Part shown: in pieces, positions 14,001 through 28,744 of the stretch | Layout of the letters: each line of letters opens with the position of its first letter | Numbering within the stretch: position 1 is the stretch's first letter | NCBI RefSeq assembly: GCF_014077005.1 | Contig: NZ_JACGVC010000044.1 | Coordinates: 248,001-312,000, forward strand | Source: Colwellia sp. MB3u-45 | GTDB lineage: Bacteria > Pseudomonadota > Gammaproteobacteria > Enterobacterales > Alteromonadaceae | Reading direction: 5' to 3' | Length of the DNA: 64,000 bases | The notes under the pieces: generated by a model | Told to the model about the DNA's origin: nothing | What the model saw: only the letters and a program-made list of their open reading frames with translations | The model's database searches: none | Made by a program: the position numbers and the translations under genes

Positions 14001-15019
14001 TTGACGAAGCAGAGGTTGTTGAGCCGCAAAAAAACACAATCACAGAGAGTAAAACTGAAAACTCAACGGCTAACAACGAAGAAATTTCAGATGATTTTGA
14101 TTTCGATATTGACACTCTTATTGATGAAGTCAACCAAACGCCTGAAGCGAGTGACGCACCATTAGATATTGGTGATGATATTCTTGATACTACATTATTT
14201 GATAAAGAGTTTGATAAAGAATTTGATAGCGATTCAGATAGCGAATTGGCAAGTGATTTGCTCAGTGAAAATACTGAAAATAAAGCGGCAGAGCAAGCTA
14301 GCAGCGCTACTGATGAAGAAGACTTACCAGCATCATCTGGCGACTTCGACGAATCAACTTTAGCCAATTTGCTCAATGATGAAAAAGATAGTGATGATAT
14401 GGTGGAATTATCACCAGATTTTACTGATAGCAATGTCTTAGCTGATTTACTCTCTGGTCATGATGACACTGCACCGAGCGCTGCTAAAAACACTACAAAG
14501 AGCAACGCTGAAGAAGTTAATGGTATGAAAGAGCTTGATAACTTAGATTTTGATGACTTATTGGCCAATATTGAAGAAGAAAGTAGTCAACCTGCCAGTG
14601 ATATTGGTAATGATGATTTTGACATCGGTGATGACTTTGACATAGGTGATGACCTAGAGACAGTTGAGGAAGATATAGCGCCAACAAAAGATAATTCGGA
14701 TAACAAAACTGCAGATAAAGATTTTATTTCTGTAGATTCTTTGTTATTTAATAGTCTATCAGATGGTGAGCCAAGTGAACCTTATGAAAAAATGAATATT
14801 GATGTCGGTTTGAGTGAATTTCCTGAGTTTTCAGGTGATCTCACCGAAGACGATATTGATGATGACAATGGTATTGCGGCAAAATTAGATTTGGCTAAGG
14901 TGTATCTTGAGATTGGTGATGACGATAACGCCGAAGTGATTTTACTCGATGTTATTAAACAGGGCGATGTACAACAACAATTTGATGCACAGCAACTATT
15001 AGACAACCTAAAAGACTAA
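11024..15019 (+). CDS. fimV: FimV/HubP-like polar organiser with LysM domain
   Basis: 1331 residues. Signal peptide (about 1-26), periplasmic LysM-like peptidoglycan-binding segment (about 46-103), a coiled coil (about 150-255), one membrane helix (about 263-286, STWFVVLMATLPAILVL), then a very long acidic cytoplasmic part. The last 50 residues (AAKLDLAKVYLEIGDDDNAEVILLDVI) are the conserved FimV C-terminal TPR-like domain. Homologues mark the cell pole and recruit chromosome-partitioning, flagellar and type IV pilus proteins. The acidic part contains two tandem blocks built on the DDIDALLD motif common in this family. The place after asd is conserved, but truA, often next, lies 13 kb away. 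Confidence 0.92.
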   Translation: MQTLLRLCLWQVLIISISCFSLPISADDGIRIRGPQSTDAFPYDRYGPIVGKDTLWNIALQVRPDSGLSVYQVMQALYENNPDSFKDKNLNHMINGQYLKIPSIAAMRAINPEGAQQKSVSDDKAWQKKVLKIAPNKVRPSEETSVNKKDLDDAKSEINVQLQAIDSSQQQRFATIQNDVLDSIDGLQSLLKENEALRQRLTSFTDQLGVMQNEVAKSKEIKVQMDDMISLQQALLAKAEAREQALLLEKQKADLEEGSLMSSTWFVVLMATLPAILVLSFLAFLYRRKASSENVVPTKKEKIVEPTTKPTTKPINEPESTSVDDELALDELSLDDELSMDLSENDEGDNDLFSDDLDDLDELEDISLDNDSETISLDDDIVEGEALEGGQLDQGDLDSLFAGLEDEPSTDDDTKLDSDQIDQSELDSLLAESAESTKSESTASDNSETLNEPEDVDALLDTASEDISEVSAPENTPPEATSEVSSTDDTDTLEDSINDQSDTSAANNQKAEDTAPEETDDVSVPDDIDAPVDSVNDQSDTSAANNQKVEDTAAEETNDLSAPDDIDAPVDSVNDQSDTSAANNPKVEDTAAEETNDLSAPDDIDAPVDSVNDQSDTSAANNQKAEDTAAEETNDLSAPEDIDALVDSINDQSDTSAANNPKVEDTAAEETNDLSGPDDIDALLDSINDQSNTLPVNDQKVEEDNLAAKTSEVSDPDDIDALLDAINDTDEEANSEVSDPDDIDALLDSINDTDEEASSEVSDPDDIDALLDAINDTGEEASSEVSDPDDIDALLDAINDTGEEASSEVSDPDDIDALLDSINDTDEEASSEVSDPDDIDALLDAINDTGEEASSEVSDPDDIDALLDAINDTGEEASSEVSDPDDIDALLDSINDTGEEASSEVSDPDDIDALLDAINNTGEEASSEVSDPDATATTSNPATALASENISNDDIATSAPSDNENIALINNFTDEYVQSFLGTDFSEQSNESVDEAEVVEPQKNTITESKTENSTANNEEISDDFDFDIDTLIDEVNQTPEASDAPLDIGDDILDTTLFDKEFDKEFDSDSDSELASDLLSENTENKAAEQASSATDEEDLPASSGDFDESTLANLLNDEKDSDDMVELSPDFTDSNVLADLLSGHDDTAPSAAKNTTKSNAEEVNGMKELDNLDFDDLLANIEEESSQPASDIGNDDFDIGDDFDIGDDLETVEEDIAPTKDNSDNKTADKDFISVDSLLFNSLSDGEPSEPYEKMNIDVGLSEFPEFSGDLTEDDIDDDNGIAAKLDLAKVYLEIGDDDNAEVILLDVIKQGDVQQQFDAQQLLDNLKD
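12515..13084 (+). repeat. fimV tandem block A: five 114-bp units
   Basis: Five near-identical in-frame 38-residue units beginning NDQSDTSAANN and ending with a DDIDA(P/L)VDS motif. A degenerate sixth (NDQSNTLPVND) leads into block B. High DNA identity between units implies recent expansion. Confidence 0.9.
13157..13804 (+). repeat. fimV tandem block B: nine 72-bp units
   Basis: Nine in-frame 24-residue units EVSDPDDIDALLD(A/S)INDT followed by (D/G)EEASS. A tenth unit breaks off after EVSDPDA at 13805. Units differ at only a few bases and alternate between two sub-types. The repeats create long antisense open frames that are not genes. Confidence 0.93.
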
Positions 15020-15048
15020 CTAAGCTGTAGTATTTTAGCTTGGGTAAA

Positions 15049-15073
15049 AAGGCTGCAACTTGCAGCCTTTTTT
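15049..15073 (+). terminator. Rho-independent terminator after fimV
   Basis: Stem AAGGCTGCA / TGCAGCCTT with a 3-base loop, then T6. Confidence 0.88.
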
Positions 15074-15206
15074 GATCCTTTTATCGACAGAGCCATTGCA
15101 TCAATAACAGGCATATAGCCGTTTAAACTCTTACCTTAAAGCTCATTAGGAAACTCTAATCATAGCGCCAATTGATAAACTATATGAATGTACACAGCAG
15201 AGCAAC

Positions 15207-15624
15207 GTGAGCGTCCGGAAAACTGCACATTTTCCTCGTTAATTTTTCATTCTAAAGTTACTCCCAGTTAGCTCATTGGAACAACTTATGTATCGTAAAA
15301 CTTTTGATGACTGGAAAAACCAATAGCATAAACTTATTCGCTTCGTTGAAGATGGCAATCTATCAATTGATAATAACCGTGCCTAACGTGCGGTAAAACC
15401 CTTTGTGATAGGTAGAAAAAAATTGCTTGTTCTCAAATACCGCTAATGGCGAAAAAGCCAGTGGGATGTTGTATTCCATAATAGAAACAGCCAAAGCGAA
15501 CGACTTAATTTTCTTTGACTATATGCACATTAATTTGAGCAACTAAGTCAAAAACCTATTGATATTAATCCACTGATACCCTGGAATGTAAAACTTGGCT
15601 AGGTGTCGATTGCCAGACGCTCAC
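15207..15624. mobile_element. IS66-family relic 1 (418 bp, internally deleted)
   Basis: Left end GTGAGCGTCCGGAAAACTGC; right end read in reverse GTGAGCGTCTGGCAATCGAC, an imperfect terminal inverted repeat. Inside are the start of a small IS66 accessory frame (MYRKTFDDWKN) and the decayed end of the tnpC transposase. The right part (GAGCAACTAAGTCAAAA to CTAGGTGT) is shared with relic 2 at 27377. No 8-bp target duplication is visible. The rest of the 830-base gap after fimV holds only the terminator and the promoter region of the next gene. Confidence 0.8.
15333..15512 (+). pseudogene. IS66 TnpC transposase C-terminal fragment
   Basis: Translation gives RFVEDGNLSIDNNRA, stop, RAVKPFVIGRK, then after a one-base frameshift FSNTANGEKASGMLYSIIE and TAKAND. 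This is the conserved C-terminal region of IS66 transposases (DNNRAER.. PFVIGRKNWLF). An in-frame TAA and the frameshift make it non-functional. Confidence 0.85.
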
Positions 15625-15723
15625 CATTAAGTGACCAATAAATTGGTTCAATTACTGTAGCAGCTCCTGTTGAGCTATCTTTTTCCGTTCAGTTAGCCGC
15701 TATTTATTCGCTTTCCTCTTTGA

Positions 15724-15778
15724 CAGTTACATTGCTGTCACATTAAGTACACAAAAATAACGCATTGCTGTCATTTAT
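15724..15778 (+). promoter_or_regulatory. Possible PhoB-type direct-repeat site
   Basis: CAGTTACATTGCTGTCAC (15724-15741) matches the Pho-box consensus CTGTCATAWAWCTGTMAY at about 13 of 18 positions. A second CTGTCAT starts at 15768, exactly 33 bases (three 11-base PhoB half-site steps) after the CTGTCAC at 15735. The same bases also contain the inverted repeat TGACAG-N8-CTGTCA (15721-15740), so another regulator is possible. It lies 73-127 bases before the lipoprotein gene. Confidence 0.4.
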
Positions 15779-15850
15779 CAACCGTACGATAACGAAAATA
15801 ATTTATTCACTATTACATTTTTTCAACTACTTTCTACGGAGCAGAGCTAA

Positions 15851-18628
15851 ATGCACATAAAAAACCTATTCAAAATAAGTACCATTGCAGGCGCGCTAAT
15901 ATTAACCGGTTGCGGCGGAGATATTAATTTATCATCCGATGTTGATAATTCTGCTGGAGACAATGTTATCAATAATCCTGCTCCAAGCACCCCTATTAAT
16001 GTGGCTTTACCTGGCAAAACTAACTCTGCCTTGAGTGGTCAAGTTTCTCAAGTAATTGGTTTTGATGTTAACGTACAAACCTTAGATGGTGAAATTAGCG
16101 AAGATATGACGCTTGTTGCCTCTACTAATGGTGCACCGGTTTTTTATGCGATTAGCGGTCCGTTAGAAGTGAAAGCGGGTGCAACCTTAAGTATCGAGCC
16201 AGGGGTAGTATTATTTGGTCAATCAGGTGGTGATTATTTAGTTGTTCATCGCGACGCAAAAATTGATGCCAGCGGCACAAGTACAAAACCTATTATATTT
16301 ACCTCACTGCAAGATGTTATCGGTGAAACGACAGCAGCTGGTCAATGGGGTGGTCTAGTGCTGTTAGGTAGTGCACCAACAAACAAATGTCCCACTGATG
16401 ACAGCGCGTGTTCATTGCAAGTTGAAGGCGCTAAAGAAGGAGCGGTATTTGGTGGTACTGACTGGGAAGATAATTCAGGTATATTGAAATATGTGGTCGT
16501 AAAATATGCTGGCTTTGAAATAGCCCCTGATAACGAATTAAACGGTATCACCTTTGGTGGTGTTGGTTCAGGTACCACGGTTGATTACGTGCAAGTGCAC
16601 TCAAACGCGGATGATGGTGTTGAATTTTTCGGCGGTGCAGTGCAAATTAAACATTTAGTGCTAACTGCTAACCAAGACGATAGTATCGACTGGGACAATG
16701 GTTTTCGGGGTAAAATTCAGTTTGCTTATATTGAACAAGACAAAAATTCAGGCCCAGGCAATCGCGGCATTGAAGCAGACAATAATGGTTCAAATCCTAG
16801 TATCGAACCACAATCTAATCCAACCTTATCAAATTTAACCATTATTGGTAATAATTTCAAAGGCACAGCTAACGACTCTGAAGGTATATATTTACGCGAA
16901 GGCACAGCAGCAAAAATATTCAATACTGTTGTTACTGGCCCAAGCGAAATGGGTGAATGTTTAGAATTTGAAGGTGGCAGCACCTCATCGGTAACTGTTG
17001 ATAATGCCAATAGCGCCAAAATAGTCATGCAAAACGTGGTAATGGCTTGTAGCAACGGTGAAAACTTTAAAAACTCAAAAGCAGCTGACGGTTCAGTGCT
17101 GTTAGACCTTGAAGCTTGGTTCTTGGCTGAGTCTTCAAACAGTATCAGTACATCTATATTGTTAGATGAAAGCGGTCAGCCTGATAGCAATTCACCCTTA
17201 GTGGGTACGGGTCAAAATGTAGCAAACACCCAAGACGGCTTTTTTGACTCAGTGGATTATATTGGCGCAATATCAAGCACTAATGATTGGCGTCAAGGTT
17301 GGGCATTTGGCTTTGGTGGTGGCGTAGTTACCGCCGCAGCACTTGTACAAGGTTGCCCAACAGGTACTACCGCCATTTCTCCTATCGACGGTGTCACGAC
17401 CACCTGTCAACTCACAGGTCACCTTACTGCAGATTTAACCTTAACGGCTAAAAATGTTTACGCATTAAATGGTCCAGTATTTGTGGGGAACGACAAAGCG
17501 GATTCTGCGGTATTAACCATAGAAGCAGGAACTACTATTTATGGCCGTTCAGGTGCTGACTATTTAGTAGTTAGCCGTGATTCAAAAATTCAAGCTAACG
17601 GCAGTCAAAGCAAGCCCATCACCTTCACTTCAAGTGAAGATCTTAAAGGAGAAGCTACATCAGCGGGGCAATGGGGCGGTTTAGTCTTGTTAGGTAATGC
17701 CCAATCCAATAAGTGTCCTACCGATGGCAGTGCTTGTTCATTACAAGTGGAAGGCGCTGAAGAAGGTGCTGTATTTGGTGGCAGCGATGACAGCGATAGT
17801 TCGGGAACTTTGCGTTATGTAGTGGTTAATCATGCGGGTTTTGAAATTGCGCCAGATAACGAATTGAACGGTATCACCTTTGGTGGTGTTGGCTCAGGCA
17901 CAACGGTTGAATACGTGCAAGTTAACGACAACGCTGACGATGGTGTTGAGTTCTTTGGTGGCACAGTCAATGCGAAATACTTAGTATTAACCTCAAACCA
18001 AGATGATGCTTTGGATTGGGATAATGGTTTTCGCGGTAATCTGCAATATGTCTTGGTAAAAGCAAATCCGGACAATGGCCCAGCAAATCGTGGTATTGAA
18101 GCGGATAACGACGGTTCAAATCCAAGTAGGCTGCCACAGTCTAATCCAACGATCGCCAACATGACTATTATCGGCAATAACTTTAAAGGTACGTCAAGTG
18201 ACTCTGAAGGAGTTTATTTACGCGAAGGCACTAAAGCTCAGCTTTTTAACTTTGTGGTAACTGGCACAGCAGATATGGGTGAGTGCTTTGAAATTGAAGG
18301 TGGCAATACCTCTTCAGTGACAGTTGACCAAGCGGTTGCTGGCGAAACAGTGATTGCTAACTCAGTATTTGCCTGTAGCGAGAATTTCAAAAATGCAAAA
18401 GAGGCCGATGGTTCAGTGTTATTAAACACCAGTGATTGGGTATTAAACAGTAATCTTGATAACAGTACCGCCGCTAGTATGACCGATGTGGTTAACGGTA
18501 TCTTCACAACAGATACTACAACGGCTAAAGACTTTACCGGTCATGCGTTCTTCAATAATGCCACCCATATAGGTGCGGTTACTGCTGACAACGATTGGAC
18601 TCAAGGATGGACTGTAGGTTTAGAATAA
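15851..18628 (+). CDS. Duplicated beta-helix-type outer-surface lipoprotein
   Basis: 925 residues. The signal peptide ends in a lipobox, LTGC, with the lipidated Cys at 21. The rest consists of two homologous halves (about 70-500 and 525-925), each with GDYLVV.RD.KI, AGQWGGLVLLG, NKCPTD.SACSLQVEGA, NELNGITFGGVGSGTTV, DDGVEFFGG and NRGIEAD.DGSNPS. The short Gly/Asn/Asp-rich repeats suggest a right-handed parallel beta-helix. The two cysteines per half (KCPTD..AC) may form a disulfide. Many conserved Asp residues could bind Ca2+ or another ligand. Exact function is not known; the next gene is a TonB-dependent receptor, so an outer-membrane role with that receptor is inferred. Start has GGAG upstream. 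Confidence 0.8.
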   Translation: MHIKNLFKISTIAGALILTGCGGDINLSSDVDNSAGDNVINNPAPSTPINVALPGKTNSALSGQVSQVIGFDVNVQTLDGEISEDMTLVASTNGAPVFYAISGPLEVKAGATLSIEPGVVLFGQSGGDYLVVHRDAKIDASGTSTKPIIFTSLQDVIGETTAAGQWGGLVLLGSAPTNKCPTDDSACSLQVEGAKEGAVFGGTDWEDNSGILKYVVVKYAGFEIAPDNELNGITFGGVGSGTTVDYVQVHSNADDGVEFFGGAVQIKHLVLTANQDDSIDWDNGFRGKIQFAYIEQDKNSGPGNRGIEADNNGSNPSIEPQSNPTLSNLTIIGNNFKGTANDSEGIYLREGTAAKIFNTVVTGPSEMGECLEFEGGSTSSVTVDNANSAKIVMQNVVMACSNGENFKNSKAADGSVLLDLEAWFLAESSNSISTSILLDESGQPDSNSPLVGTGQNVANTQDGFFDSVDYIGAISSTNDWRQGWAFGFGGGVVTAAALVQGCPTGTTAISPIDGVTTTCQLTGHLTADLTLTAKNVYALNGPVFVGNDKADSAVLTIEAGTTIYGRSGADYLVVSRDSKIQANGSQSKPITFTSSEDLKGEATSAGQWGGLVLLGNAQSNKCPTDGSACSLQVEGAEEGAVFGGSDDSDSSGTLRYVVVNHAGFEIAPDNELNGITFGGVGSGTTVEYVQVNDNADDGVEFFGGTVNAKYLVLTSNQDDALDWDNGFRGNLQYVLVKANPDNGPANRGIEADNDGSNPSRLPQSNPTIANMTIIGNNFKGTSSDSEGVYLREGTKAQLFNFVVTGTADMGECFEIEGGNTSSVTVDQAVAGETVIANSVFACSENFKNAKEADGSVLLNTSDWVLNSNLDNSTAASMTDVVNGIFTTDTTTAKDFTGHAFFNNATHIGAVTADNDWTQGWTVGLE

Positions 18629-18648
18629 GTTGTTAATAATCTAAACAT

Positions 18649-18676
18649 TGCCGCCAACATACGTGTTGGCGGCAAC
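18649..18676. other. Perfect 12-bp hairpin between lipoprotein and receptor genes
   Basis: TTGCCGCCAACA, loop TACG, TGTTGGCGGCAA. There is no T-run on either side, so it is more likely an mRNA stability element or weak attenuator than a standard terminator. Confidence 0.7.
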
Positions 18677-18779
18677 ATTAATTAGGGCATTTGTTATTAC
18701 CTTTAATGCCTCGTTAACTCACAGTTTGCGAATAAGCAGCTTTTCCTATTGATGGACAGCCATTCATATGAGGTTAAAA

Positions 18780-21488
18780 ATGAAAACTAAATCAAACCGT
18801 TTCTCTTTATCACACATTGCACTTGGCGTGCTAAGCAGTTTGATCGCTTTGCATGCCTCTGGGCAAGAAACAACCGAGCAAGTGGTTACATCCGACACTG
18901 AAGTTAGCGACCAAGTGACTAACAATGCGCTCGAAAACGCCGCCATTGAAGAAGTCGTTGTTAAAGCCAGTCGCTTAAAAGGAACTGCCAGCGCGGTCAT
19001 TGCAGAGCGAAAAAATCAGGCGTTTATTGCTGATATTTTAGGGGCAGAGCAAATATCAAGAACGGGTGACAGTGATGCCGCCGCGGCGCTTAGACGTGTT
19101 ACCGGTTTAACGCTAGTTGATGGGAAATTTATTTACGTACGTGGTTTGGGTGAGCGTTACTCCAGCACCCAGCTAAACGGTGCCGCTGTGCCTAGTCCAG
19201 ATCCCACTAGAACTATTATCCCATTGGATTTGTTTCCTGCACTTATCATAGAGACTTTATCGGTACAAAAATCTTACTCGCCGTCTATGCCGGCCCATTT
19301 TGGTGGCGGTAATGTTGATATTCGCTTAAAAACTATTCCCAAGAACTTTATCTTTAGTTTGGCGGGAAATTTTGGTGGAAATACTGACAACATTGGCGAA
19401 GGCTTTGGTTATCAAGGCGGAGGTAACGACTGGCGTGGCAAAGATGATGGTACTCGCGCAGCACCTGCAGCATTAAAGAAATTATGGAACAATTACAATT
19501 CACTCAATGGTCTTTCGCAAGAGAAAAATCGCCAAATTGCCGCCGATCTTAACCGTGACTACGACCCAGTAGACGATAAAGTGGCCCCTGATTTTGGTGT
19601 TGATGCGACCTTGGGTGACACTTTTACCTATAATGATTTTCGCTTAGGATATTTGGCCGCCTTGTCTTATGACAATCAATGGCAAGTATCTAAACAATAT
19701 GAAGGGCAAGACTTTACCAATCAAGGTGATGGTATCTGGTCATTAGTGCGCGGTTTCGATAAAGTGGATGCCACCGAGCATTCAGTTAAATTTTCAGGTA
19801 TGTTCAATTTTGGCATTGAATATAACTATAATCACCGCCTTGATTTTAGCTCATTAGTGTTGCGTGATACTCGCGATGAAATAAAAGACAAATTCGGTAA
19901 TACCAATAACGTATTATTAAGTGATGGCTTGCGGGTACGCGATACCGAAGTGAATTATGAAGAGCGCCAAATGTTGGCTAATCAGGTGCGCGGTACTCAC
20001 AACTTCCCCGCGTTGTGGAACATAGGGCTGGACTGGAAATACTCAAATGCCCGTTCGAATCGCTATGCACCAGGTAATATTTCCACCCGTTATATTCTGT
20101 CAGATGTTAACGAAGATGGTCTGTTTGATGTCGGCAATGAAAGTTCACTGCGCAAAGCTACCACAGCCTCTCGATACAGCTTTCAAAATCTGAATGACAA
20201 AGTTGAAAATTATGGTTTTAACCTCTCGTTGCCGCTTAGCTTCAAACAATTAGAAGTTGAGTTAAAAGCGGGTGCTGATTTTGTTGAAAAATCACGTGAT
20301 GCGCTTGCCCGCAGAGTTGACGTAAATACGCTGGCGTTCGATGCACTTGATTTAACGGGTAGCCAACTGAACAGTATTTTGACCGATGAGGTCATACTCA
20401 ATCAACCACTGCGAGGCAATGAGCAAATTATTCGCGATACTTCGGTGGCTGGTGATGATTATTATTCCGCACAGTTAGTGGATGCTTATTATGTTGAAGC
20501 TGATTTTTTCTTCAATAATCGCTGGCGAATTAGTGGTGGCGTGCGTTGGGAAGATTTCCGCCAAGTGGTGGCACCGTTAGACCCAGCGACTGGAAAATTT
20601 GATCTACCTTTACAACCGACCACAGCCGACTTAGAGAAACTTGCTTTTGCTGAAGAAGGTTTTTATCCGGCACTGGCATTGACCTATATTCCTGATACTG
20701 AAATGCAATATCGTTTTTCTTACGGTGAAACTACCGTGCGTCCTGATATTCGTGAAGTGGCTCCGGCCACTTATCTTGACCCACTGACTGGTTTCCCTAT
20801 CGGTGGTACGCCTAGTGTCACTAGTACTGAGGTGAAAAACTACGATTTGCGTTGGGAATGGTATTTAAGTAGCGGTGAAAACCTGTCAGTTGGTCTGTTT
20901 TATAAAGATATGATCGACCCCATAGAGGCGGTGCAATCACCCTCTCAAGATGGTCCACCATTGATCCGAATCGCTAATGCGGAAAAGGGCGAAGTGTACG
21001 GGATTGAAATGGAATTTTTGAAAGACTTTAATTTCATCGGGCAGTGGGCTGAAAGTTTCTTCTTATCGGGTAACCTGACCTTAAGTGATTCTGAAATCAC
21101 CATAGACACTCAAAAAGTGGTGGAGCAAACGGGCGTTTCAACTACCGTCACTAACCCAATTAGACGAATGACAGGCCATTCTAAATACGTGGTCAATTTG
21201 AATTTGGGTTACGACGCGCCTAACGGTAACCATTCGGCGACTTTAGCGTATAACGTTTCTGGTGCACGCATTATCATTCCAGGTATTGATGAAAAAGATG
21301 ATGCTTATGAGCAACCATTCCATTCGTTGGACTTTATTTACACTTATTATCCAACGTATGCCTCAACGGTTAAGTTCAAAGTTAAGAACCTGTTAGACAA
21401 ACAAAAAGAAATTACTTTTGAAAATACCTTGTTACGCAGCGAGTCTCGGGGTGTCGGGGTAGACTTGTCGTTAAAATGGGATTTCTAA
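18780..21488 (+). CDS. TonB-dependent outer-membrane receptor
   Basis: 902 residues. Signal peptide (about 1-29, ending HASGQ), a TonB-box-like EEVVVKA about 30 residues later, a plug domain (DAAAALRRVTGLTL, YVRGLGERYSSTQLNG, FGGGNVDIRLKT) and a long beta-barrel ending in an aromatic strand (SLKWDF). It takes up a ligand across the outer membrane using energy from a TonB complex; the substrate cannot be read from the sequence. The start at 18780 is preferred over ATG 18768 because GAGG lies six bases before it. It follows the beta-helix lipoprotein by 151 bases and precedes a complete TonB system, which probably energises it. Confidence 0.93.
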   Translation: MKTKSNRFSLSHIALGVLSSLIALHASGQETTEQVVTSDTEVSDQVTNNALENAAIEEVVVKASRLKGTASAVIAERKNQAFIADILGAEQISRTGDSDAAAALRRVTGLTLVDGKFIYVRGLGERYSSTQLNGAAVPSPDPTRTIIPLDLFPALIIETLSVQKSYSPSMPAHFGGGNVDIRLKTIPKNFIFSLAGNFGGNTDNIGEGFGYQGGGNDWRGKDDGTRAAPAALKKLWNNYNSLNGLSQEKNRQIAADLNRDYDPVDDKVAPDFGVDATLGDTFTYNDFRLGYLAALSYDNQWQVSKQYEGQDFTNQGDGIWSLVRGFDKVDATEHSVKFSGMFNFGIEYNYNHRLDFSSLVLRDTRDEIKDKFGNTNNVLLSDGLRVRDTEVNYEERQMLANQVRGTHNFPALWNIGLDWKYSNARSNRYAPGNISTRYILSDVNEDGLFDVGNESSLRKATTASRYSFQNLNDKVENYGFNLSLPLSFKQLEVELKAGADFVEKSRDALARRVDVNTLAFDALDLTGSQLNSILTDEVILNQPLRGNEQIIRDTSVAGDDYYSAQLVDAYYVEADFFFNNRWRISGGVRWEDFRQVVAPLDPATGKFDLPLQPTTADLEKLAFAEEGFYPALALTYIPDTEMQYRFSYGETTVRPDIREVAPATYLDPLTGFPIGGTPSVTSTEVKNYDLRWEWYLSSGENLSVGLFYKDMIDPIEAVQSPSQDGPPLIRIANAEKGEVYGIEMEFLKDFNFIGQWAESFFLSGNLTLSDSEITIDTQKVVEQTGVSTTVTNPIRRMTGHSKYVVNLNLGYDAPNGNHSATLAYNVSGARIIIPGIDEKDDAYEQPFHSLDFIYTYYPTYASTVKFKVKNLLDKQKEITFENTLLRSESRGVGVDLSLKWDF

Positions 21489-21517
21489 TGTAAGCGTCAT
21501 GCTTGTCTTTAATTCAT

Positions 21518-21542
21518 AAGGTCACTTCGGTGGCCTTTTTTT
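21518..21542 (+). terminator. Rho-independent terminator after the receptor gene
   Basis: Stem AAGGTCAC / GTGGCCTT (one G-T pair) closed by a TTCG tetraloop, then T7. It separates the receptor transcript from the TonB operon. The remaining 250 bases before 21791 hold only a weak Pho-box-like match at 21667-21684. Confidence 0.88.
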
Positions 21543-21790
21543 ATGCGGGTAAGTTAAGTGTGTAAATTATAGCTGGAACTTACGGGCGCAATTGTTTTTC
21601 TGATTTGTTTGTTCTAACTATAAGAAAAAAATCATATTTTTGTTATTTAACAGAGATGAAATATTACTGCAACCTGAATGTCACAATGGGTAAGTAAGCT
21701 GCGCCTCATAGTAATAACGGTAAACAAACATATCCACACTAGGTGATTGTCTACCACTTTTAGCATTAACCGCAATAAGTAGGTTTTATT

Positions 21791-22669
21791 ATGAAAACAT
21801 CCCTAAAGGCGAAAATTAACTTGCTTATTAGTTTAAGTACACTGGTTTGTTCGTTATTTGTTAGTCAAGTTAATGCCCAGAGCGCTGAACTTACTGACGT
21901 TGTTAAAGCAGGTAAACAGCTCAACAAAACGGCGAGTCAGTCACAACAACAGATCAATAAGTTAAGTGATAAGACCTTGAGTAAATTACAGCAATTTAAA
22001 ACTGTTAATAAGGAAATTCAGGGGTTAAATATTTACAACCAACAAATGCAAAGCCAGACCTCGAATCAACTGATTGAATTACAGCAAATTGCTCAGTCGA
22101 TGAATCAGGTAAGTATTATCGAACGTCAGGTTTCACCCTTGATGTCGCGAATGATCTCTACTTTGGTTGAGTTTGTAAAATTAGATGTGCCATTTTTACC
22201 GATAGAGCGCAGTGAACGTATCGCGAGTTTAAATACCATGCTTAATCGCGCCGATGTTTCTGTATCTGAAAAATTTCGTCGAGTGTTAGCAGCCTATCAG
22301 GTGGAAGTGGATTACGGTCGCACTATCGAAGCCTATTCAGGTTTACTTGAGGTTGAAGGGAGTGAGCGCGACGTCGATTTTTTGCGCATTGGCCGGATAA
22401 GTTTGGTGTATCAAACGCGTGATGGTAATCACTTAGGGCGTTGGGACCAGACAAGTCAAAGCTGGCAAACACTGCCGAGTGATTACCGTTTGGGTGTTAA
22501 CAAAGCGCTGCGCATTGCGCGCAAACAACTTGCCCCTGACTTGGTCTTAGTCCCATTACTTGTTAATAGCAGGGCCAATAACATAGCCAAGAGCACCTCA
22601 GCAAACCAAAACAGTGTGAATGAGTCGCCAACCGATAGGAATATAGGAACATATAATGAAGCGAATTAA
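21791..22669 (+). CDS. DUF3450 family periplasmic protein
   Basis: 292 residues with a signal peptide (about 1-30, ending VNAQS) followed by a long Gln/Lys-rich coiled coil (about 35-110) and a conserved domain (PLMSRMISTLVEFVKLDVPFLPIERSERI, AYQVEVDYGRTIEAYSG, RIGRISLVYQTRDG). Proteins of this type head TonB2-like operons in Vibrio, Shewanella and relatives. A role in the periplasmic part of the TtpC-type TonB complex is inferred from position. It overlaps the next gene by 14 bases, indicating tight co-translation. Confidence 0.9.
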   Translation: MKTSLKAKINLLISLSTLVCSLFVSQVNAQSAELTDVVKAGKQLNKTASQSQQQINKLSDKTLSKLQQFKTVNKEIQGLNIYNQQMQSQTSNQLIELQQIAQSMNQVSIIERQVSPLMSRMISTLVEFVKLDVPFLPIERSERIASLNTMLNRADVSVSEKFRRVLAAYQVEVDYGRTIEAYSGLLEVEGSERDVDFLRIGRISLVYQTRDGNHLGRWDQTSQSWQTLPSDYRLGVNKALRIARKQLAPDLVLVPLLVNSRANNIAKSTSANQNSVNESPTDRNIGTYNEAN

Positions 22670-24029
22670 AAAACCATTTTCTTGCCTAGTATTGGCATTA
22701 AGCACCCTGTTGGCAATGGCAAATACTGTTTTTGCAAAGCCAGCATCTGATTTAGATGATTTGTTGGCTCAAGTAGCAGCTGGACAAATTGCTCAAAATT
22801 CACAAAACAAAGCACGAGAAGCTCAGTTTAAGGCAAAGTTTAGCGAACAAGACCAATTACTGGTGCAGGCAAGTAAACAGCGTGATGAGCAAATTGATTT
22901 AAGTAACCAGCTTGAGCAAAACTTTCAAAACAACGAGCTTGCTTTGGCTGATCAAAGCGACGCCCTCAATAAAAGCCTAGGCGAATTAAAAGAATTGTTT
23001 GGGGTATTACAGCAAGTAGCGGGTGATACCAGGAGTAAGTTTGAAACCTCGGTAATTTCAGCAGAGTTTGAAGACCGTGGTGAATTCTTAGATGAGTTTG
23101 CGCAAAGCATGGGCTCAACATCGAAACTTGCATCGATTGAAGAAATTGAACGTTTATGGTTTGAATTACAACGTGAAATGACTGAAAGCGGTAAAGTTCA
23201 GCAATTTACCCGCGAAGTTGTTATAGCTAATGGTAAAAAAGTAAACCAAGAAATTACCCGTGTCGGTGGTTTTAACTTGATAGCCGATGGTAAATATCTT
23301 GAATATATTGATGAAACTGGCACGGTAGCCGAACTTATCAGACAACCCTCTGAGCGCTTTTTAACCACCACAACAGCCTTAAGTAACAGTGACGGTGATG
23401 TGGTGCCATTTGCGCTTGACCCCACTGGCGGCTCAATATTAGGTTTATTAGTACAGGCACCTGACATGCAAGAACGTATCGAACAGGGTGGTGCTATCGG
23501 TTACGTGATTTTAGGTCTTGGTTTGATTGGTTTGTTGATTGCTATACAACGTTTTATTAGTCTTTTTCTTACTGGCGCTAAAGTCAATCGCCAACTTAAA
23601 TCTGATCAGGCATCAAGTGATAATCCGCTTGGCCGCGTGATGCTGGTTCGAGAACAAAATCCAACGGCGGATACTGAAACCCTCGAGCTAAAACTTTCTG
23701 AGTCAATACTGCGTGAAGTGCCAAAACTATCCAGTAAATTAACCTTAATAAAAATTATCTCAGTGGTTGCGCCACTAATAGGTTTATTGGGCACAGTGAC
23801 TGGGATGATAAATACTTTCCAAGCCATCACTTTGTTTGGTACCGGCGATCCTAAATTGATGGCAGGCGGCATTTCACAGGCACTAGTTACCACAGTGTTA
23901 GGTCTAGTAGTTGCTATTCCTATGGTATTTATCTTTGCGCTATTAAACTCTCGTAGCCGCAACATTATCAATGTGTTGCAACTGCAAAGTGCTGGAATAA
24001 TTGCCGAACGTGCGGAAAAAGGAGCGTAA
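22656..24029 (+). CDS. ttpC: TtpC-like MotA/TolQ/ExbB proton-channel protein
   Basis: 457 residues. A cleavable-looking signal (about 1-27), a long periplasmic region with coiled coil (about 30-110), then a MotA/TolQ/ExbB module with membrane helices near 275-300, 365-387 and 403-428 (APLIGLLGTVTGMINTFQAI). This architecture, an ExbB with a large N-terminal extension, is that of TtpC, the fourth essential part of Vibrio TonB2 systems. It lies directly before a short ExbB, so the operon has two different channel-family proteins, as in those systems. Confidence 0.88.
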   Translation: MKRIKKPFSCLVLALSTLLAMANTVFAKPASDLDDLLAQVAAGQIAQNSQNKAREAQFKAKFSEQDQLLVQASKQRDEQIDLSNQLEQNFQNNELALADQSDALNKSLGELKELFGVLQQVAGDTRSKFETSVISAEFEDRGEFLDEFAQSMGSTSKLASIEEIERLWFELQREMTESGKVQQFTREVVIANGKKVNQEITRVGGFNLIADGKYLEYIDETGTVAELIRQPSERFLTTTTALSNSDGDVVPFALDPTGGSILGLLVQAPDMQERIEQGGAIGYVILGLGLIGLLIAIQRFISLFLTGAKVNRQLKSDQASSDNPLGRVMLVREQNPTADTETLELKLSESILREVPKLSSKLTLIKIISVVAPLIGLLGTVTGMINTFQAITLFGTGDPKLMAGGISQALVTTVLGLVVAIPMVFIFALLNSRSRNIINVLQLQSAGIIAERAEKGA

Positions 24030-24031
24030 AC

Positions 24032-24562
24032 ATGATTTGGTTCATGGAAATGATGAACGCAATCAGTGAATTTATGGACACTGGCGGTCTGGTGTTGACT
24101 GTGATTGCTTGGGTTATTTGTTTGATGTGGTTATTCATTTTTGAACGTTTTGCCTTTGTATATTTTGGCTATAAAGAGACCAAAAAAAAGTTACAAGCAA
24201 ATTGGCAAGGGCGCAGTGAGCAAAAATCCTGGCACGCAGAACAAATTCGAACTGCGTTGATATCTCGCGGCTCAGCCGCGTTAAACAATAATTTGGTTCT
24301 GATCCAAAGCTTAGTGGTGATTTGTCCCTTATTAGGTCTGCTTGGTACGGTAACCGGTATGATTGAAGTGTTTGATGTTATGTCTATTTCAGGCAGCGGT
24401 AATGCGCGTTCCATGGCCTCTGGGGTGTCGCGTGCCACTATCCCAACAATGGCCGGCATGGTGGGTTCATTATCTGGGGTATTCGCGGTCACATGGCTGA
24501 AAAGTTATGCCAAGCGTGAAAGCCAATTGCTTGAAGATAGTATGGTAATAAGCACTAGATAA
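24032..24562 (+). CDS. exbB: ExbB proton-channel subunit
   Basis: 176 residues, the length of the short ExbB2-type proteins. Three membrane helices: about 17-38 (GGLVLTVIAWVICLMWLFIF), 93-115 (SLVVICPLLGLLGTVTGMIEVF) and 135-158. The conserved GLLGTVTGMI segment of the family is present. With ExbD it forms the proton-driven motor that energises TonB. GGAG lies eight bases before the start, overlapping the end of the preceding gene; only two bases separate the two reading frames. Confidence 0.94.
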   Translation: MIWFMEMMNAISEFMDTGGLVLTVIAWVICLMWLFIFERFAFVYFGYKETKKKLQANWQGRSEQKSWHAEQIRTALISRGSAALNNNLVLIQSLVVICPLLGLLGTVTGMIEVFDVMSISGSGNARSMASGVSRATIPTMAGMVGSLSGVFAVTWLKSYAKRESQLLEDSMVISTR

Positions 24563-24649
24563 TTCGTTAACTAGGTGTTGGAACCACATGTTGGCAGAGC
24601 ATGTTGGCACAACAAGAGTGACTCACGAAAACAACATTTGAGAAATATT

Positions 24650-25063
24650 ATGCGTTCACAATTAGCAAAATTACAACAAAATACCGATGAAAACGTAGAA
24701 ATTGACATGACACCTATGCTGGATGTGGTGTTTATCTTACTGATCTTTTTTATTGTTACTGCTTCATTCGTTAAAGAAGCGGGCATTGAGGTAAATCGTC
24801 CTGAAGCCGCTACGGCAGTAAAAAAAGAGCGCGCTAATATTTTAGTGGCCATCAGCGATAAAGGTGAAATATGGATCAACAAACGTCACGTTGATGTCCG
24901 TTCGGTACAAGCTAACATTGAGCGCTTAAAAGCTGAAAACCCGCAAGGTACTGTGGTTATTCAAGCGGATAAAAAAGCCACGACAGACGTATTAATTAAA
25001 GTCATGGACTCTGCTCGCGCTGCGGGTGTTTATGACGTTTCCATTGCTGCGCAAGAGGGCTAA
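24650..25063 (+). CDS. exbD: ExbD biopolymer-transport subunit
   Basis: 137 residues with a single N-terminal membrane helix (about 22-44) that carries the essential Asp in DMTPMLDVVFILLIFFIV, and a periplasmic ExbD/TolR domain ending in VIQADKKATTDVLIKVMDSA. The frame stays open upstream to 24575, but translation from there gives an atypical tail, and ATG 24650 aligns with other ExbD2 proteins. The 87-base gap after exbB contains a short direct repeat (CATGTTGGCA twice). Two bases separate it from tonB. Confidence 0.94.
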   Translation: MRSQLAKLQQNTDENVEIDMTPMLDVVFILLIFFIVTASFVKEAGIEVNRPEAATAVKKERANILVAISDKGEIWINKRHVDVRSVQANIERLKAENPQGTVVIQADKKATTDVLIKVMDSARAAGVYDVSIAAQEG

Positions 25064-25065
25064 TC

Positions 25066-25689
25066 ATGGTTTCGTACACTGGTCGTTACGGTATCGCTTT
25101 GCTGTTCGCTGTTGTTATGACCTTTTTATTACTTTGGGGTATGCAAGCGCTTATCGTGGGTGGTAATAAAGCCATGACCGAAGCGCCACGAGGTCATGTT
25201 CTTGATTTTATTCGCTTAAAAAAAGATGAACAGGTGCTAAAGAAAGAGCGTAAACCACAAAAACCCGCCAAGCCGAAAGAACCACCACCACCACCTATGG
25301 TTGTACCACAAATGCAGCAAAATAATCCCAATAGCGAAACGTTAAGCACCAGCTTTGCTGCTGACATTCAAATTGATGCAGGATTAAGCGGGGGCTTAAG
25401 TTTAGACAGCGGTGACGGCGATTATTTACCAATTGTTAAAGTGGCCCCGATTTATCCAAGGCGCGCACAGGCTAGGGGCATAGCGGGTTACGTTATTGTT
25501 GAATTTACCGTCACTAAAAATGGCTCGGTTAAAGACCCTGTGGTCGTAGAAGCAAATCCTGAAAGTTTATTTGACCGCGCTGCAATGGATGCGGTATTGA
25601 AGTTTAAATACAAACCTAGAGTCGTTGATGGTGAGGCGATGGCGGTGGCCGGCGTGCAAAACAAAATCACTTTTCAAATTGACGATTAA
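25066..25689 (+). CDS. tonB: TonB family energy-transducing protein
   Basis: 207 residues, shorter than E. coli TonB and typical of TonB2. One membrane helix (about 8-28), a short proline/lysine spacer (KPQKPAKPKEPPPPPMV, about 61-78), and a complete C-terminal TonB domain (APIYPRRAQARGIAGYVIVEFTV, FDRAAMDAVLKFKYKP). It transmits the energy of the ExbB-ExbD motor to the TonB box of outer-membrane receptors. The short spacer suits partners such as TtpC that extend into the periplasm. The likely client is the receptor encoded at 18780. Confidence 0.95.
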   Translation: MVSYTGRYGIALLFAVVMTFLLLWGMQALIVGGNKAMTEAPRGHVLDFIRLKKDEQVLKKERKPQKPAKPKEPPPPPMVVPQMQQNNPNSETLSTSFAADIQIDAGLSGGLSLDSGDGDYLPIVKVAPIYPRRAQARGIAGYVIVEFTVTKNGSVKDPVVVEANPESLFDRAAMDAVLKFKYKPRVVDGEAMAVAGVQNKITFQIDD

Positions 25690-25785
25690 CGCCGTGATAT
25701 AAAATGTAAGTTTAAAAACCGTAGCTTTAAAATCGGTAAGCTTAAGATCAAGCTAAAGATAATGATTAACTTAGGATAAATACTC

Positions 25786-27096
25786 ATGAATAAAACACCC
25801 TTATTGCTATTAAGTCTTGGCTTGTTATATTTTGCTCCGGTACTGGTAAATATCACCGGGTTTATCGATATTGGCATAGCTCAAGCGGCGGATTCAACGC
25901 CTGAAACAAGGCAATCTAAAATAGTGCCAGCCATGCGAGATCGGGTTTACAGCCAGCTAGCACGAGCACAAAAACAGGCCGATGAAGGTGATAAAATTGG
26001 CGGCTTTGCGATTTTAGATGAAGTTAAAGCCCGCCTTGATAGCTTAAATTCGTATGAACGTGCCATGCTCTGGAACTTTTACGGTTTTATGCACTATGGT
26101 AATGACGATACCGAATTAGCTATGACTAGCTTTGAAAAGGTGGTGCGTGAAGAAGGGATCCCCGACAGTCTTTATTTATCCACTTTGTATTCACTGGCAC
26201 AGTTGGCAATGCAGCAAAATAATTATCCCAAAGCTTTGGCTTATCTCAAGCAATGGCAAAGTGTTAATAAAAAAGCGTTAACGCCAGGTCAAGATTTACT
26301 CTTTGCTCAGATTTTTTACCAAGACAAGCAATATGAAGCCAGTATTAGCCATATTGACAGCGCCATAGCACAGGCTTTAGCTAAAAATGATCTACCCGCA
26401 GAAAATTGGCTGATATTGCAACGCGCTGCGTATTTTGAATTAAAACAACCAAAGCAAGTCACTAAGGTAATGGAACAACTGGTACGTTATTACAATAAAG
26501 CTGAATATTGGCCACAACTAGCAGCTATGTACGGAGAAATTGGTGAAGAAGCTAAGCAGTTAGCGGTCATGGAAGCGGCTTGGCAAAATGACTTTATTAC
26601 CAAACCCAATGATATTATTTCTTTAGTACAGTTATATCTTTATCATAACGTACCCTACAAGGCGGCCAACTTGTTACATGAAGCCATTGACAAGGGGCAA
26701 GTGAGTGCAAAAGAAAAATATTTTAATTTGTTAGCACAAGCTTACCTAATGGCGAAAGAAGATAATAAAGCGATCCCGGTATTGCAACAAGCGGCCAGCA
26801 TTGCTGAAACTGGTGTTTTTGATGCGCAATTAGCGCAAGCTTATTTAAATACTGAGCATTGGCAACTTGCGCAAGATGCCGCAAAAAAAGCCATAGCTCG
26901 CGGCGGCCTGTCCTCAACGGGCACTATGTATTTAGTGGTGGGTATGGCGCAATTTAATTTAAAAAAATATGATCAGGCGCTAACTTCTTTAACCCAAGCT
27001 ATTAGTTATGCTGAAACGACCAAAGTGGCAAAACAATGGTTTACTTACGTTGAAAAAGAGCAGATTCAGCAAAACCGCTTAGCTATGTTGAATTAA
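25786..27096 (+). CDS. Secreted TPR-repeat protein of the TonB operon
   Basis: 436 residues with an N-terminal signal (about 1-36, ending AQAAD) and tetratricopeptide-like helix pairs through the length, for example AKEKYFNLLAQAYLMAKEDNKAIPVLQQA and TMYLVVGMAQFNLKKYDQALTSLTQAI. TPR proteins commonly end TonB2-type operons in Vibrio and Shewanella; a scaffolding role in the periplasm is inferred. Ninety-six bases separate it from tonB, and AGGA lies upstream of the start. The stop codon is the first base triplet of a 13-bp tandem repeat. Confidence 0.85.
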   Translation: MNKTPLLLLSLGLLYFAPVLVNITGFIDIGIAQAADSTPETRQSKIVPAMRDRVYSQLARAQKQADEGDKIGGFAILDEVKARLDSLNSYERAMLWNFYGFMHYGNDDTELAMTSFEKVVREEGIPDSLYLSTLYSLAQLAMQQNNYPKALAYLKQWQSVNKKALTPGQDLLFAQIFYQDKQYEASISHIDSAIAQALAKNDLPAENWLILQRAAYFELKQPKQVTKVMEQLVRYYNKAEYWPQLAAMYGEIGEEAKQLAVMEAAWQNDFITKPNDIISLVQLYLYHNVPYKAANLLHEAIDKGQVSAKEKYFNLLAQAYLMAKEDNKAIPVLQQAASIAETGVFDAQLAQAYLNTEHWQLAQDAAKKAIARGGLSSTGTMYLVVGMAQFNLKKYDQALTSLTQAISYAETTKVAKQWFTYVEKEQIQQNRLAMLN

Positions 27097-27145
27097 AGCG
27101 TTAAACTAAAACGTTGAACTAAAACGTTGAACTAAAGCGTTAAAA
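27094..27145 (+). repeat. Four 13-bp tandem units starting at a stop codon
   Basis: TAAAGCGTTAAAC, TAAAACGTTGAAC, TAAAACGTTGAAC, TAAAGCGTTAAAA. The first TAA is the stop codon of the TPR gene. The following 230 bases (27146-27376) show no feature I can name. Confidence 0.88.
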
Positions 27146-27376
27146 TAATATCCCGGAAAGCAGCATAAATGCCGTTAGGCGATGAGCAAGTGAGTGCTAT
27201 GAGAAGAGATAAACTATGTAATTGGCACCCTAGTAAGGCGTAGTTTCAAGGATAACGGGTAACTATTGATCTAATACAAGCTGTCTATTGATGAGAAAAA
27301 TAAATACCTAAAGGCTCCTTATACGGCTGTTTTTTGTTTATTTTTATTTTAATAATCAAAATTATAACCATTTATC

Positions 27377-27742
27377 GTCAGTGTCCGGCGACCTGCACAT
27401 TTCCCTCGTTAACCTTTCCTTCTAAAGTTACTTCCAGCTAATTCATTGGAGCAACTTATGTCTTGTAAAAATTTTGATGATTGGAAAACTTCTTGATGAA
27501 CAAATAGCTAGCGGCTTATCTGTGCTCCAGTTTTGTCATCAACATCAATTAAAGCTAAAATATTTTTACTCCCGTTAATCTATGATTTGTAAGGCGGCAG
27601 ACAACAAGGGTTTTATTCAAGCACATGTCATTACCAAGCAAGCCACATTGTCTTGAGCAACTAAGTCAAAACCCTACTGATATTGCTCCACTGGTACCTT
27701 GGAATGTAAAATTTGGCTAGGTGTTGTTTACTAGACGCTCAC
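27377..27742. mobile_element. IS66-family relic 2 (366 bp, internally deleted)
   Basis: Left end GTCAGTGTCCGGCGACCTGC parallels the left end of relic 1; right end read in reverse GTGAGCGTCTAGTAAACAAC parallels its right end. It keeps the first accessory frame (27458-27575) in decayed form and the same right part as relic 1, but lacks tnpC. Its right end abuts, and seems to cut, the MITE-like copy at 27743. Confidence 0.75.
27458..27575 (+). pseudogene. IS66 accessory-protein (TnpA-type) fragment
   Basis: MSCKNFDDWKT, then a frameshift/stop, then LDEQIASGLSVLQFCHQHQL and KLKYFYSR. The pattern W..L..EQ..SGLS...FC..H.L....FY is that of IS66 first-frame proteins. Broken by a frameshift and later stops. 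Confidence 0.7.
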
Positions 27743-27868
27743 GTTAAAATGAAAAACTATGGCGTTATAAAATTTATAAGGTGAATAACTACTGATTAAA
27801 TTTCATGTCTGGTATTTATCCATTTTTCTGCATGAAAAAGGTGCTCACTTAATTCATCAAATGAGTAT
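27743..27868 (-). mobile_element. MITE-like element, copy 3 (truncated, minus strand)
   Basis: Read on the minus strand it begins ATACTCATTTGATGAATTAA, contains GCAGAAAAATGGATAAATACC and TTATAAATTTTATAACGCC, and matches copy 2 at 10658 for about 125 bases. It stops at CATTTTAAC, where the IS66 relic begins; about 45 bases of the far end are missing. Confidence 0.7.
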
Positions 27869-27961: not shown

Positions 27962-28744
27962 ATGCGTTACGCTTTAGGCATAGAATACGATGGTAGCAAC
28001 TACTACGGTTGGCAAAGACAAAAGAATGTTATTAGTGTGCAGGAGTCATTAGAAAAGGCTTTATCAAAAATAGCAAATGAACCCATTGAGGTAGTATGTG
28101 CAGGCCGAACCGATACTGGGGTCAACGCGACTAATCAGGTCATTCATTTTGAAACTGATAAAGTCCGTAAAGATGTTGCTTGGACACTAGGCGTTAATAC
28201 TAACCTACCAAAAGATATTGCGGTATCTTGGGTGAAAGAGGTTAATGATGACTTTCATGCGCGCTTTAGTGCAACGGCTAGACGGTATCGTTATATTATT
28301 AATAACAATCGGTTACGGTCAGCGATTTTAAGTTCAGGTATTAGCTTTTGTCATTTTCCACTTAATGAAAATTTAATGCATCAAGCCGCACAATATTTGG
28401 TGGGTCAACACGATTTTACGTCGTTTAGAACCGTGCATTGTCAATCACATTCTCCAACCCGTACCTTGCATCATTGTAATGTTTCTCGCCAAGGTGAGTT
28501 TATTATTATTGATGTTAAAGGTAATGCGTTTTTACACCATATGGTGAGAAATATTGCCGGTAGTTTGATGAAAGTAGGTCAGGAACTAAAACCAGTGAGT
28601 TGGCTCAAAGAAGTATTAGAAGCAAAAAATCGTTGTGTTGCTGGTATTACAGCACCATCGGCTGGACTATACTTTGTTGATGTTGATTACCCAGAGGAGT
28701 TTGGCATTCCAAAGCGCAACCCAGGACCCTTGTTTTTACTATAA
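27962..28744 (+). CDS. truA: tRNA pseudouridine(38-40) synthase TruA
   Basis: 260 residues. It converts uridines 38, 39 and 40 of the tRNA anticodon arm to pseudouridine. The catalytic Asp51 is in [23 protein letters not shown] at the N terminus and [19 protein letters not shown] are family signatures. The start at 27962 follows a strong ribosome-binding site (GGAGG, six bases upstream) and gives the standard [12 protein letters not shown] terminus; the frame continues upstream to 27905 but that extension is unlikely. In relatives truA follows fimV; here it comes after the IS66-bracketed region. Confidence 0.96.

Follow-up and report, generated by a model that had tools for sequence, protein, structure and literature searches.

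A TonB module and two IS66 relics between fimV and truA

The DNA analysed here, a 64-kb stretch called the window below, carries fimV (11024–15019), eight co-oriented genes (15851–27096), truA (~27962–28744), accD and folC, in this order. Features of the interval are collected in Table 1. The open reading frames, their order and their strand had been described in an earlier account made from the letters only (the sequence-only reading), and all of them agree with the list of reading frames and with Pfam. Pfam recognised a TonB-dependent receptor, a DUF3450 protein, two MotA/TolQ/ExbB proteins, ExbD, TonB and a TPR protein in the module, while its first protein, the lipoprotein, gave no family above the Pfam cut-off. 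The hairpin scan returned 19 hairpins in the region for 12.4 expected, hence those in Table 1 are consensus matches only. Acidic repeats of ~24 residues form a long series in fimV itself, and genus members differ widely in the aligned length of this gene. Immediately 3′ of the TPR gene, a 13-bp unit is found in four head-to-tail copies (27087–27148).

Table 1. Features of the fimV–truA interval, in window coordinates
Feature	Position	Strand	Remark
Terminator-like hairpin 3′ of fimV	15046–15072	+	Consensus scan match only
Relic L, IS66 element with both ends, middle deleted; contains a TnpC C-terminal remnant	15207–15624	+	
PhoB-type array, five 11-bp units, 5′ of the lipoprotein gene	15724–15778	+	Score 25/35
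ElpS-family lipoprotein, 925 aa, two beta-helix lobes	15851–18628	+	Surface location predicted
TonB-dependent receptor, CC0171-like, 906 aa	18768–21488	+	
Terminator-like hairpin, receptor unit / motor unit boundary	21518–21537	+	Consensus scan
PhoB-type array 5′ of the motor genes	21634–21688	+	Score 22/35; second-best matrix match in the window
TtpB (DUF3450)	21791–22669	+	Name from PMC6957404 (available part)
TtpC (MotA/TolQ/ExbB domain)	22656–24029	+	Pfam
ExbB	24032–24562	+	Pfam
ExbD	24644–25063	+	Pfam
TonB	25066–25689	+	Pfam
TtpD-like TPR protein	25786–27096	+	Name from PMC6957404 (available part)
Relic R, IS66 element with both ends, internal deletion unlike that of relic L	27377–27742	+	

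The genes for DUF3450, TtpC, ExbB, ExbD, TonB and TPR proteins stand together. This is the full set announced by the sequence-only reading, and the published names TtpB and TtpD could now be given to its DUF3450 and TPR proteins (PMC6957404, cited throughout from its available part). The six genes make up a Vibrio TonB2-type motor, TtpB-TtpC-ExbB-ExbD-TonB-TtpD. A second, resident motor of this type is present in the same genome outside the window (G000:C44:343181, locus L095).

The beta-helix lipoprotein and the TonB receptor had also been recognised from the letters. The structural model adds a correction for the lipoprotein, which has two beta-helix lobes (mean pLDDT 78.6, pTM 0.52). The two halves of the gene (16216–18427), 1326 nt apart, have a DNA identity of 70–76%, which indicates that the double lobe came from an internal duplication. 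Searching solved structures by sequence with the receptor and the lipoprotein gave no matches, and a Foldseek search with the lipoprotein model returned beta-helix proteins, none of them informative.

The two edges of the interval share direct repeats in the same orientation, 113 nt long (84% identical) at 15206/27376 and 109 nt long (83%) at 15526/27644. A full-length IS66 element of a relative (G208; L167, positions 621–2950, 2330 bp), whose flanks show, on inspection by eye, the 8-bp target duplication TGATTACT, was used as the reference for both relics. Relic L aligned to positions 621–732 and 2643–2950 of L167, and relic R to 658–893 and 2854–2950, the first bases of relic R aligning to relic L. 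Since L167 keeps the parts of the relics in the same order, with 1.9–2.0 kb between them, the relics were given the limits listed in Table 1. Terminal repeats and TnpC homology were both found in the relics; the ends and transposase remnants are ~70–76% identical in DNA to the aligned pieces of L167, but the window copies are dead, with lengths of 418 and 366 bp. A decayed IS66 at each edge, with related ends in the same orientation, had been proposed from the letters, and this holds, with the correction that each relic is a whole element which has lost an internal part and that relic R spans 27377–27742.

Are such relics common in this genome? Blastn with relic L against the 4.17-Mb genome returned relics L and R as the sole matches at E ≤ 0.001, and the IS66 transposase profile PF03050 found relic L alone; the assembly is a draft of 59 contigs, so collapsed IS66 copies could be missing from this count. 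The scattering of IS66 relics through the genome, named beforehand as the observation that would speak against the sequence-only reading, was thus not seen. Each end of the insert coincides exactly with one of the only two IS66 traces in 4.17 Mb; this ties the relics to it, and their presence there by chance was rejected. In the family, elements of the relic kind are not rare: they were found in 30 of 295 genomes (own genome included) at E ≤ 1e-8, with 65–77% identity outside the own genome. No relic match was present in 56 loci around the modules or the fimV–truA intervals of relatives, so no IS66-flanked donor was found.

Boundaries, origin and arrival of the insert

Sixteen relatives of the same genus were available, 15 of them with a truA match (the sixteenth genome is 66% complete). 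In all 15, the fimV–truA interval measures ~0.1–1.2 kb and is devoid of module genes, and the module is also absent from this interval in the five other family genomes that were read. The comparison of this interval across relatives, called for by the sequence-only reading, therefore gave empty sites in 20 cases out of 20. The best empty site is that of G012, whose TruA is 99% identical. Homology between G012 and the window extends up to 15206 and resumes at 27743, and these breakpoints are the bases adjoining the outer ends of relics L and R: two IS copies sit exactly at both ends of the foreign insert, as in a composite transposon. Between the breakpoints, G012 has 116 bp that are absent from the window and partly recognisable in G008. 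Further left of relic L, the window lacks another ~150 bp present in G012 and G008, which suggests that the fimV–truA spacer is prone to deletion. We conclude that the 12-kb insert is a cassette which was truly acquired, and that both of its boundaries are cleanly marked.

The genus-mate G014 allowed a comparison of the module with resident genes. The six module motor proteins of the window and of G014 are 63, 71, 70, 88, 70 and 56% identical, and the lipoproteins and receptors 67 and 71%; for the resident paralogous motor, the six values between the same two genomes are 95, 94, 99, 99, 95 and 89%. For the trees, 32 loci were taken and the matches above a set identity and 80% coverage were kept, leaving 25, 25 and 26 rows. 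In the lipoprotein tree, the window groups with genus g8 (100/99) and G014 with genus g54 (100/98). The receptor tree again joins G014 to g54 (100/100); there the window belongs to a group that also contains g8, g72 and g62 (98/96). In the TtpC tree, the window falls outside a 100/100 clade of six resident-genus motors, its exact placement being left unsettled by this tree. Given that the partners of the window and of G014 differ, the two genus members got the module from different sources. The module of G014 (L091, G014:C25) comprises eight genes at another place in that genome and is related to that of g54, a second acquisition.

At E ≤ 1e-150, a receptor was found in 311 of 395 family genomes, more distant receptors included, and the closest among the 395 genomes is 75% identical. 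At the same threshold, 9 of the 16 same-genus relatives gave no match, among them the TruA-nearest G012, G008 and G005. A scan of genome contigs, from which the window's own record was possibly excluded, found no closer donor in 6 loci, the best being 69% identical (Thalassotalea, Alteromonas, Pseudoalteromonas). The donor of the module is unsampled. Composition gives little, as expected if the donor belongs to the same family: GC and GC3 are 0.41–0.45 and 0.33–0.45 in the module, 0.40–0.43 and 0.27–0.35 in six neighbours. The identities and the trees both mark the module genes as foreign to this genus.

Ancient vertical inheritance between fimV and truA, with later loss in the relatives, would account for related modules in many family genera (the 311 of 395 genomes, distant receptors included), but it has to face 20 of 20 other intervals read without the module, an insert that terminates at IS66 ends, ancestral sequence in G012 and G008 at the place where the insert begins, and module identities to the genus-mate far below those of the resident motor. 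We consider it highly improbable and rejected it as strongly disfavoured, on the empty intervals and the G014 identities.

A composite transposon is expected to leave an 8-bp duplication and near-identical ends. At the outer ends of the relics no 8-bp target duplication was seen (flanks AGAGCAAC / GTTAAAAT), the relic ends are 84% and 86% identical, and an IS66-flanked module, which the sequence-only reading had proposed to look for elsewhere, was not found in the 56 loci. Relics L and R differ at 32 of 211 sites (15%), compared to 40 of 405 for the flanking DNA and G012 (one-sided Fisher p = 0.037). Should the insertion postdate the separation from G012, the two relics had probably diverged before they came in. 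Of the composite-transposon-type acquisition first proposed, acquisition and IS66-bounded ends stand; the duplication, near-identical copies and flanked copy elsewhere that a composite transposon would lead one to expect were not found. Composite transposition of the cassette is plausible but unproven.

The same cassette may instead never have been a composite transposon, and may have entered by homologous recombination between a chromosome-borne and a donor-borne IS66, with one or two crossovers, a route to which we give slightly less than an even chance. The absence of the outer duplication, the replacement or loss of 116 bp of ancestral sequence and the prior divergence of the relics are all consistent with it. 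Between the inner flanks, CATTAAGT and CATTTATC, 5 of 8 positions are the same (P = 0.033 by composition), as is weakly expected from one IS copy on a circle with its duplication, but this agreement is weak and was examined post hoc, and composite transposition followed by decay and an IS-adjacent deletion would give a similar picture. Both IS-to-IS recombination and transposition followed by IS-adjacent deletion fit.

PhoB-type arrays upstream of both units

Direct repeats of the PhoB type in 11-bp phase lie upstream of the lipoprotein gene and of the motor genes; they were scored with a half-site consensus which we take to be that of PhoB. With this assumed consensus, the lipoprotein array has the best score on either strand of the window, above the maximum of 24 reached in 20 shuffled 64-kb controls, and the motor array is weaker. 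The genome's own pstS promoter scores 25, like the lipoprotein array, and phoB is present 2.3 kb from pstS. A matrix made from the promoters of 18 relatives, the window being left out, gave the lipoprotein site as the best match of the window (16.8), and the site before the motor genes as the second best (11.6). The region upstream of fimV has an array score of 20. The lipoprotein array of the window has five units instead of the six of most relatives, one 11-bp unit having apparently been lost with the phase kept.

Similar arrays were found in relatives, where the promoters compared are related and not independent. Among lipoprotein promoters, 16 of 19 scored at least 22 (0.2% of 2000 controls), the remaining 3 scoring 19–21. 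Among module-type motor promoters, 20 of those in hand were scored (L087 and L173–L178 were left out): 14 reached at least 22, compared to 0 of 1000 controls, and the other 6 were at 19–21. Resident-type motors were at background, as all 4 scored 16–17 for a control mean of 16.9; L096, L097 and L143 were left out, and for 3 of the 4 scored motors the 300-bp upstream stretch stopped at the first aligned residue instead of the start codon. Of 10 loci from outside the family, 9 were scored (L211 was left out). In 7 of these 9 homologues there is a tandem Pho box that no more than 10 of 300 controls equalled; in the other two, L205 (Caulobacter gene order) and L209, no Pho box exceeded chance.

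The terminator-like hairpin at 21518–21537 lies between the receptor and motor units, so that each unit seems to own a Pho promoter. The distance from the receptor pair to the motor is ~2–16 kb in several relatives, which means that their partnership rests on neighbourhood and shared promoters. The genes found in between in some relatives have no common theme; in one of them (L145, 12079–15661), polyphosphate kinase and exopolyphosphatase genes are present there. No Fur box above chance was detected, the best one (13/19) being reached by 9.6% of controls, and iron regulation was rejected on this ground. The Pho-type promoters, and the ElpS link described below, had been missed by the sequence-only reading.

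Proposed function and comparison with known systems

In Caulobacter crescentus, the ElpS (CC0170)-CC0171 pair adjoins type II secretion genes. ElpS production is confined to phosphate starvation. The protein is attached to the cell surface and increases the phosphatase activity of the medium with no phosphatase activity of its own; expression of the CC0171 receptor was reported to be alike in rich and poor medium (PMC2996285, cited here and below from the accessible portion of the paper). The Caulobacter PhoB regulon includes various TonB-dependent receptors (PMC11208175, likewise in part). The published gene order is that of L205, a locus from another class, in which a lipoprotein-receptor pair precedes gspC-D-E-F, with a divergent prepilin peptidase gene. 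Window and L205 lipoproteins are 36–37% identical over each lobe, and the receptors 31%. As in this pair, the lipoprotein gene of the window is directly upstream of the TonB-dependent receptor gene, and the same was observed in 8 of the 10 loci read outside the family. A profile search of 200 phylum genomes found lipoprotein homologues in 16 (own genome included), several of those in other classes being single-lobed. By homology and gene order via L205, the lipoprotein and receptor of the window match the ElpS-CC0171 pair, and their promoter arrays predict induction by phosphate starvation.

The reading that we favour, and hold to be rather probable, is that of a horizontally acquired, IS66-delivered cassette under Pho control, which takes up a phosphorus compound by means of its own motor. 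It would have been brought between fimV and truA through IS66 elements, of which two decayed copies mark the exact ends. Under phosphate starvation, PhoB is predicted to bind and turn on both units, the first consisting of the ElpS-family double beta-helix lipoprotein, presumably surface-located, together with its TonB-dependent receptor, and the second of the TonB2-type motor TtpB-TtpC-ExbB-ExbD-TonB-TtpD. The lipoprotein may present or capture the phosphorus compound at the surface, or help to liberate it; the receptor would carry it through the outer membrane, with force supplied by the cassette's own motor.

A different cargo (iron or haem complexes, or a glycan), with the PhoB-like arrays being incidental, is unlikely. 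Vibrio TonB2 systems of the same composition do serve siderophore uptake and are induced by iron depletion (PMC6957404), and the lipoprotein weakly resembles PL6 alginate lyases in fold (Foldseek E 2.4e-5, TM 0.17), but this resemblance is that of the beta-helix fold alone, the best Fur box is at chance level, ElpS is induced by phosphate starvation (PMC2996285), and the arrays recur in both units across many relatives and are missing from the 4 resident-type motors scored.

TonB motors mostly appear in discussions of iron. Should PhoB control an entire motor with its receptor, and should the two pass between genera together, marine bacteria would possess an energised way of scavenging phosphorus through the outer membrane that can be transferred. 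The ElpS-CC0171 pair has awaited a function since 2010, and would be given a partner motor and a transport role that can be tested. The broader claim is one on which our confidence is evenly divided: marine Alteromonadaceae would exchange a full phosphorus-scavenging cassette, promoters included, whose TonB motor belongs to a class published as iron-regulated and has passed entirely into the Pho regulon, where it works for a dedicated receptor of the ElpS type. The parts of the cassette are of known kinds. In the literature searched, whose coverage excludes most subscription journals and is in part limited to excerpts, we found no description of a Pho-regulated TonB-ExbB-ExbD motor, nor of the combination of PhoB-type promoters, a TonB2-type motor and an ElpS-type receptor pair.

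The closest known motors are the TonB2 and TonB3 systems of Vibrio vulnificus, which include TtpB, TtpC and TtpD, and where TtpB and TtpD are needed, for iron (PMC6957404). They share the same six protein families with the module. Whereas Vibrio TonB2 is induced by iron depletion, the module carries PhoB-type arrays and lacks a Fur site, and it travels together with a receptor pair. The resident motor L095 has the same six families in the same order and is 26–60% identical to the module, but it is devoid of a Pho-type array and is 89–99% identical to its G014 counterpart.

The Caulobacter ElpS-CC0171 pair was compared via L205: the window pair is homologous to that of L205, which has the published order, and it shares with the Caulobacter pair a link to phosphate starvation, predicted in the window from the promoter arrays. 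The L205 lipoprotein has one lobe and 515 aa, compared to two lobes and 925 aa in the window. Finally, type II secretion genes lie beside the pair in Caulobacter and in L205, whereas in the window their place is taken by a TonB2-type motor.
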